From the NCBI RefSeq assembly GCF_003594935.2, contig NZ_CP043342.1:3348001-3412000 (forward strand): 64,000 bases of DNA. The letters are read 5' to 3'. How positions within the stretch are numbered: position 1 is the first letter of the stretch; every line of letters begins with the position of its first letter. A program made the translations under genes and the position numbers. The notes beneath the pieces are model-generated. The model saw only the letters and a program-made list of their open reading frames with translations. It did not search any database and was not told the origin of the DNA. Below are positions 42,996 to 43,598 of this stretch, one piece after another. This stretch comes from Enterobacter huaxiensis. Lineage in GTDB: Bacteria; Pseudomonadota; Gammaproteobacteria; Enterobacterales; Enterobacteriaceae.

Positions 42996-43093
42996 AAAAC
43001 TCCAGGCAATTGTCCATTATGTCCGTAAGGGCATGCCGCTAAAGGAAAAAGGCACGCTTTTAAATGTACTTTGCCATGAAGTGTAGACGCGAT

Positions 43094-43125
43094 GAAATAA
43101 AAAAGGCCGCCCGAGGCGGCCTTAA
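43094..43125 (-). terminator. Terminator of the small 43.2-kb transcript
   Basis: AAGGCCGCC and GGCGGCCTT pair around loop CGA, and on the minus strand the hairpin is followed by TTTTTTATT. It lies 8 bp after the stop codon of the 35-residue ORF and ends that transcript cleanly. Confidence 0.88.
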
Positions 43126-43127
43126 CG

Positions 43128-43235
43128 CTACTTGTCCTGCGCTGTCATGGCAAAAGCAACGAACACATTCGGTTCATCGCTCTTTACAACGAGTACGCTG
43201 GCGACAATGAACGCGATGCAAAAATAGCGTTTCAT
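43128..43235 (-). CDS. Putative small hydrophobic type I toxin-like protein
   Basis: This 35-residue ORF is a candidate toxin. It begins MKRYFCIAFIVASVLVVKSD: two basic residues, then a hydrophobic core (residues 4-17) like a signal peptide or single membrane span, and ends in a short polar tail (FAMTAQDK). AGGGA lies 7 bp before the ATG, and a strong terminator follows 2-3 bp after the stop. I do not recognise the protein. It could be a TimP- or Hok-like inner-membrane toxin controlled by the antisense RNA at 43489-43575, or another small regulatory protein. Transcription unit architecture is seen; toxicity is inferred. Confidence 0.6.
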   Translation of the reverse strand: MKRYFCIAFIVASVLVVKSDEPNVFVAFAMTAQDK

Positions 43236-43377
43236 TATGCGGTCCCTGCTGCTAACCGCTCCACCGTTCACCACCGGTGATAAGTCGGTGGACACAAGCT
43301 CTGACGAGAGCCTGACTTACGGTTGTGGTAACACCTCTCCCGGGACCGGTGCCCATGTGCGAGATGGCGGAAAGGGA
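43236..43377 (-). promoter_or_regulatory. Structured leader of the 35-residue ORF
   Basis: About 140 nt of untranslated RNA precede the ORF. A stem pairs TCCACCG (minus 43292-43286) with CGGTGGA (43266-43260) and encloses TCACC-GGT-GGTGA. A second hairpin, GCTCT-CGTC-AGAGC, lies at 43311-43298. GTCCC near the 5' end can pair with GGGAC in the Shine-Dalgarno, so a full-length transcript may be poorly translated. The 17 nt at 43299-43315 are the predicted antitoxin target. Confidence 0.5.
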
Positions 43378-43383
43378 CGCCGC

Positions 43384-43412
43384 ATAATAGTTGGCCCGGG
43401 CGTAAAACGTAA
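43384..43412 (-). promoter_or_regulatory. Possible promoter of the small ORF transcript
   Basis: On the minus strand TATTAT (43384-43389) lies 17 bp after TTACGT (43407-43412). The -10 box is good and the -35 box weak, so an activator may be needed. Predicted start near 43377. Confidence 0.45.
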
Positions 43413-43455
43413 TCCACTGAAAGGATGTTTAAGAATATATTTAGGGAGTTGCAGT

Positions 43456-43483
43456 TTGATTACTCAAGGACCCGATATATGCT
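43456..43483 (+). promoter_or_regulatory. Possible promoter of the antisense RNA
   Basis: TTGATT (43456-43461) and TATGCT (43478-43483) are spaced 16 bp and predict a start near 43490, exactly at the 17-nt segment complementary to the divergent mRNA leader. Prediction by inspection. Confidence 0.45.
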
Positions 43484-43488
43484 TGTAA

Positions 43489-43575
43489 GCCTCTGACGAG
43501 GGCTTGAAGTTCACCCAACGGACCGCGAATCCCGAGGGACAAAAAAACCGCCACATTGCTGATGGCGGTTTTTTT
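43489..43575 (+). ncRNA. Putative antisense antitoxin RNA, about 87 nt
   Basis: Plus-strand RNA predicted from promoter to terminator. Its 5' end is CTCTGACGAGGGCTTGA (43491-43507). The plus strand at 43299-43315 reads CTCTGACGAGAGCCTGA, so the RNA can pair over 17 consecutive positions (15 Watson-Crick, 2 G-U) with the minus-strand mRNA leader, 64-80 nt before the ORF start. The middle GTTCACC is also complementary to GGTGAAC in the leader. It ends in a 13-bp terminator stem. No expression evidence is available. Confidence 0.45.
43541..43575. terminator. Bidirectional terminator downstream of ybfA
   Basis: AAAAAAACCGCCA (43541-43553) and TGGCGGTTTTTTT (43563-43575) are a perfect 13-bp inverted repeat around a 9-nt loop, with T-runs in both directions. 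It ends ybfA on the minus strand and, on the plus strand, the predicted antisense RNA. Confidence 0.92.
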
Positions 43576-43598
43576 ATTGCTGTGTGTAATCTTTCTTT

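Follow-up and report, generated by a model that had tools for sequence, protein, structure and literature searches.

A divergent gene pair between phrB and ybfA

The window analyzed here is a 64,000-nucleotide stretch of the Enterobacter huaxiensis genome (contig NZ_CP043342.1, positions 3,348,001 to 3,412,000), in which two small, divergently oriented units were found between phrB and ybfA. The minus-strand unit consists of a leader, a Shine-Dalgarno (SD) sequence and an open reading frame (ORF) of 35 codons that translates as MKRYFCIAFIVASVLVVKSDEPNVFVAFAMTAQDK, has a hydropathy of 2.8 over residues 4-17 and starts with an ATG at nt 146 of the RNA. It is closed by a terminator stem (43123-43103, minus strand) that was called by the terminator scan. 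The plus-strand unit has the hexamers TTGATT (43456-43461) and TATGCT (43478-43483), separated by 16 nt, and encodes a putative small RNA (sRNA) ending in a hairpin with a T-run that finishes at 43575; this hairpin folds, yet the scanner made no terminator call there. Both units had been described in an initial annotation of the interval, and direct reading of the sequence bears out that description, including the AGGGA motif.

The minus-strand unit matches the Rfam family RF00126 (ryfA) across all 296 model positions with 110 bits (E 4e-27, gathering score 80), and the order of parts is the same divergent order as in the annotated timR-ryfA/timP pair of Escherichia coli K-12. In Salmonella, the ryfA RNA was shown to be the mRNA of the toxin TimP (PMC7667032, PMC11228461), the product was toxic, and a change of its start codon abolished toxicity (PMC7667032). 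Translation of timP there requires a pseudoknot between stem-loops 1 and 3 (SL1 and SL3), and the antitoxin RNA, TimR, works by destabilizing it (PMC11228461). The window locus is very probably a chromosomal timP-timR (timPR) type I toxin-antitoxin locus, placed at phrB-ybfA instead of sseA-sseB, with expression and toxicity predicted. It has homology and synteny with the known pairs, a conserved ORF, matched pairing sites and conserved pseudoknot complementarity. The initial annotation had proposed a member or relative of the tisB/istR, shoB/ohsC, zorO/orzO and timP/timR families, and the ryfA match, the ORF, the pairing site and the pseudoknot narrow this to timP/timR. Its further statement that no E. 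coli system was described at the locus stands for the position only, as the system itself belongs to an already known family and the host is Enterobacter rather than E. coli. What is new, as read from the sequence, is the chromosomal position and the genus, and all predicted parts appear intact in the window (Table 1).

Toxicity, repression and mechanism at this locus would follow by analogy with the Salmonella experiments (PMC7667032, PMC11228461). The timP mRNA would encode a small inner-membrane toxin, and its leader fold would keep translation off until the pseudoknot of SL1 and SL3 forms. The 5' end of the divergently transcribed TimR would bind stem-loop 2, which lies some 50-60 nt upstream of the SD, undoing the active leader fold and blocking translation.

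Table 1 Features of the timPR locus, in window coordinates
Feature	Position	Strand	Basis
timP (ryfA) mRNA: leader, ORF and terminator	43099..43380	minus	Rfam RF00126, 110 bits, model 1-296/296
timP ORF, 35 aa, Sec-signal-like hydrophobic N-terminus	43128..43235	minus	direct reading and conservation
SD sequence AGGGA, in the loop of the stem equivalent to stem-loop 4 (SL4)	43243..43247	minus	invariant in the alignment
SL3 side of the predicted 7-bp pseudoknot, ACCGGTG in RNA	43272..43278	minus	pair counts across loci
SL1 side of the predicted pseudoknot, CACCGGT in RNA	43345..43351	minus	same pseudoknot test as for the SL3 side
TimR target in the timP leader (stem-loop 2)	43299..43315	minus	17 contiguous pairs with TimR, 2 of them G-U
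Probable timP -10 box TATTAT, with weak -35	43384..43389	minus	inferred from position relative to the Rfam 5' end
Probable timR promoter TTGATT-N16-TATGCT	43456..43483	plus	sequence; -10-like hexamer equally placed in relatives
TimR antitoxin sRNA (putative)	43490..43575	plus	position and arrangement homologous to K-12 timR; terminator in relatives
TimR pairing region (5' seed)	43491..43507	plus	complementarity to the leader
Candidate exchangeable cassette for specificity, comprising the two promoters, the 5' leader of timP and the two pairing blocks	43298..43512	none	sister-pair breakpoints mapped here by alignment

Two other RNA features were noted elsewhere in the window: an RtT RNA match (10405-10573) that overlaps a tRNA gene of a tRNA cluster, and a CpoB/ybgF thermometer (11689-11827).

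Pairing, leader structure and conservation

The two pairing blocks, CTCTGACGAGAGCCTGA at 43299-43315 (leader +66 to +82) and CTCTGACGAGGGCTTGA at 43491-43507, are two transitions apart, which makes an uninterrupted RNA duplex of 15 Watson-Crick and 2 G-U pairs possible. The 17-nt complementarity noticed in the initial annotation is borne out by two measures of chance. The degenerate 17-mer occurred at only these two sites in the 64 kb (0.03 expected, with two mismatches allowed), and dinucleotide shuffling of the TimR 5' region produced as much complementarity to the leader as the real sequence has in just 1 of 20,000 trials. The SL1-SL3 pseudoknot is likewise retained, with all seven pairs possible in 45 of 47 loci, the window included, and six pairs in the other two; the sequence changes seen across loci include U-for-C, which preserves G-U pairs.

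Several observations weigh against a functional timPR locus of the known kind. TimP is only ~29% identical to K-12 TimP in the alignment, and both the timP and timR promoters fall below the scanner's simple consensus threshold, so their assignment rests on position and conservation. The SL4-equivalent stem is present with the SD mostly in its loop, but its fold is weaker than in K-12 (-8.3 versus -13.5 kcal/mol), and the off-state may therefore rest on another fold. In addition, the minimum free energy structure of the window RNA pairs the mRNA 5' end, GCGUCCCU (43377-43370), with the SD region, AGGGACCGC (43247-43243, both minus strand). This helix was considered as an inactive conformation and is not claimed here, since visual comparison shows no clear conservation of it among distant ryfA members.

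A DNA pattern from the SL3 region served to locate related loci. The host genome has a chromosome-size contig of 4.9 Mb and a second contig, and among its genus-mates are records named Enterobacter hormaechei, asburiae, cloacae, mori, soli, chuandaensis, wuhouensis, vonholyi and sichuanensis, as well as Leclercia, Lelliottia and Huaxiibacter, which places the host in Enterobacter as GTDB defines it. A ryfA match was present in 28 of the 35 other genomes searched in the genus, besides the window's own, and in 51 of 295 genomes (27 of 154 genera) in an even sample of the family. A second ryfA match in the window's own genome (21.9 bits over 36 nt) was weak and was taken as chance. Three chromosomal positions were found within the genus, phrB-ybfA, rraA-zapB and acnB-yacH, with the flanks phrB, ybfA and rraA identified by tblastn and zapB, acnB and yacH recognized from translated ends. 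E. coli genomes matched the window region over ybfA only, and the timPR locus is therefore not at phrB-ybfA there; no match was found in phages. In the one annotated record checked at phrB-ybfA, neither timP nor timR was annotated. That record (locus L097, CP103578.1 320997-321487) is a 517-kb sequence called an E. hormaechei plasmid that carries pxp, phrB, timPR, ybfA and kdp, and either a plasmid here carries a chromosomal segment or the record is misassembled. The divergent timP-like loci between acnB and yacH (L028, L029 and L030) scored 33-36 bits, and their ORFs end in LFVVNLGN or LLVVNLGN, a tail nearer to that of K-12 TimP than to that of the window.

Among the loci compared at phrB-ybfA and rraA-zapB, the 35-codon ORF was found in 48 of 49, in 36 distinct sequences, and the TimR terminator in all 49. 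Had relatives that retain the locus lost the ORF or the complementarity, this would have counted against the initial annotation; the comparison instead favors it. The ratio of nonsynonymous to synonymous substitution rates (dN/dS) of timP was 0.27 overall; it was 0.11 over residues 2-20 and 0.45 over residues 21-35, in agreement with a published comment that TimP is conserved in its N-terminal part. These values bear on the possibility that ryfA is a regulatory RNA with an incidental ORF, and that the divergent RNA regulates this sRNA. The RNA has been annotated as regulatory for two decades and was studied as such in Shigella and uropathogenic E. coli; in E. coli and Shigella, RyfA mutants have phenotypes in stress and virulence (PMC8205139, PMC5333039), and RyfA1 levels are lowered by RyfB1 (PMC5333039). 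Given the purifying selection on residues 2-20, and the start-codon-dependent toxicity of the Salmonella product, this explanation is very unlikely.

Some loci are damaged, and those with a damaged timP retain TimR or its 3' part. In L076 the SD and start of timP are gone and TimR is intact, and in L085, L087, L091 and L092 timP is gone and pieces of TimR are left; a promoter-bearing timP without TimR was not met among the loci compared. In L085 and L087, repetitive extragenic palindromic (REP)-like repeats stand in place of timP in the ybfA-phrB interval, with the TimR pairing region and terminator kept, and this remnant is possibly an orphan antitoxin or a relic. In L027 (1440-1560) the timP ORF is intact, and a deletion took both promoters and SL1, its junction lying inside the two pairing blocks. 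Because these blocks are direct repeats in the DNA, the divergent antisense architecture appears to create repeats able to delete the system. In L084 and L095, a short, perfect, palindrome-like sequence, TAATGCCAGTCAGTTA..TAACTGACTGGCATTA, was seen in the ybfA-phrB interval in place of timPR; it is possibly a miniature element. That several relatives are clearly decayed at this very position, together with the weak promoters in the window, raises the question of whether the window copy is itself decayed or silent. With its ORF, SD, terminators, pairing and pseudoknot all intact and TimP constrained across the genus, this is likewise very unlikely, and an intact timPR locus is the preferred reading.

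Matched specificities and a candidate exchangeable cassette

The timP leader is nearly invariant except for a hypervariable TimR target, and the TimR seeds vary along with it. Full-leader duplex energies yielded long, gapped duplexes and blurred classes, and contiguous blocks and short seed/target duplexes were used instead. Eleven specificity classes were distinguished at an arbitrary 80% threshold; a first clustering threshold had lumped all loci into one class. Cognate short duplexes had a median energy of -31.8 kcal/mol, as compared to -16.5 kcal/mol for non-cognate ones, all 11 class-representative TimRs preferred their own target, and none of 200,000 random reassignments reached the observed sum of duplex energies. 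Sequence-related classes cross-pair to some degree (for example, the L072, L005 and L020 representatives), and orthogonality is therefore graded. Seven named genomes carry one copy at phrB-ybfA and another at rraA-zapB; within each of these genomes the copies fall in different classes, and each pairs better with its own partner.

A tree was built from the cassette segment, running from the TimR 3' arm to timP SL3. Eleven phrB-ybfA cassettes (type B) share a branch with all 12 rraA-zapB cassettes (support 100/97); apart from this branch stand 12 cassettes of type A and 4 of type C, also from the phrB-ybfA position. On the phrB gene tree, types A and B are scattered, and its starred branches force at least eight and at least seven changes, respectively, which is no better than with shuffled labels. 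Between loci L004 and L019, identity is 98% on the TimR side, 100% on the timP side and 65% in the cassette, and the drop starts and stops at the two pairing blocks. The same profile was seen in four further sister pairs. Across the sister loci, the shared flanks, terminator and ORF are 96-100% identical. Within the E. hormaechei group, L097 and L006 are type A and L067 and L007 are type B in surroundings that are ~95% identical.

Tentatively, these patterns suggest that Enterobacter timPR loci carry an exchangeable cassette, in which recombination in conserved arms would swap promoters and pairing blocks together, yielding matched, mutually non-cross-reacting pairs at a fixed locus, with diversity favored by selection. 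Pairing specificity would then change mainly through exchange of this central segment, which carries both halves of the match. As both promoters lie on it as well, one recombination event could alter specificity with the toxin mRNA never parted from its matching antitoxin. With one genome per species, repeated replacement and old polymorphism with recombination look alike. Movement of the whole phrB-ybfA region between species, or an old polymorphism sorted by chance, might also produce such a pattern in the absence of in-place exchange, as Enterobacter species do exchange DNA and a polymorphism maintained within species would likewise scatter on the tree. However, sister loci differ only over the ~210-bp cassette, so some recombination at its edges is needed either way, and the phrB tree rejects a single origin of each type (p value of the approximately unbiased test, p-AU, 1e-3 or less: 0.001 for type A and 5e-56 for type B), making an explanation without in-place exchange unlikely. 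No description of cassette exchange was found. If cassette exchange does occur, the selective reasons might be, for example, keeping copies independent or escape from regulation by foreign TimR-like RNAs.

An A+T-rich element, TTTAAGAATATATTTAGGG (43425-43446), lies midway between the two promoters and is similar in all cassette types despite the otherwise diverged cassette; it is perhaps an upstream promoter (UP) element or a regulator site.

With these loci, a type I toxin-antitoxin family that has received little study is extended to three chromosomal positions in Enterobacter, Leclercia, Lelliottia and Huaxiibacter, and about 11 matched antisense pairs become available as a natural set on nearly one scaffold. 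With both halves of the match on one short, apparently exchangeable segment, such a set would allow change in antisense RNA specificity to be measured with the toxin never left uncontrolled, and this segment is the part of potential specialist interest.

Comparison with known systems

In tisB/istR, shoB/ohsC and zorO/orzO, a toxin gene and a divergent antisense RNA are complementary over a short stretch, at a long distance upstream of the toxin start. Their likeness to the window locus is one of arrangement, with no homology seen, and they differ from timP, whose mRNA is unprocessed (PMC11228461). The timP-timR locus of Salmonella Typhimurium SL1344 (PMC7667032, PMC11228461) is alike in its divergent order, ryfA RNA, signal-sequence-like small protein, pseudoknot and terminators, and in having stem-loop 2, well upstream of the SD, as the pairing site of the TimR 5' end. 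It differs in lying in the sseA-sseB region and in encoding a TimP of 38 aa, as compared to 35 aa in the window, where the SD stem is weaker and the pairing sequence is different; the ORF starts at nt 145 in Salmonella. The E. coli K-12 pair (ryfA/timP b4812 and timR b4811) is annotated as divergent in the same order as in the window and is located between sseA and sseB, with a TimP of 41 aa that is 29% identical to that of the window.

Shigella dysenteriae, like some Enterobacter genomes, has two copies with divergent partner RNAs (ryfA1/ryfB1 and ryfA2/ryfB2; PMC5333039). Fris et al. described a variable region of 5 nt in ryfA of Shigella/Escherichia, overlapping the RyfB1 complementarity, and reported that RyfB1 acts on RyfA1 only (PMC5333039). 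The Shigella copies are tandem at one place and 95% identical, whereas those of Enterobacter lie at phrB-ybfA, rraA-zapB and acnB-yacH, and the variation confined to 5 nt within the pairing block in S. dysenteriae spans the whole block in Enterobacter.
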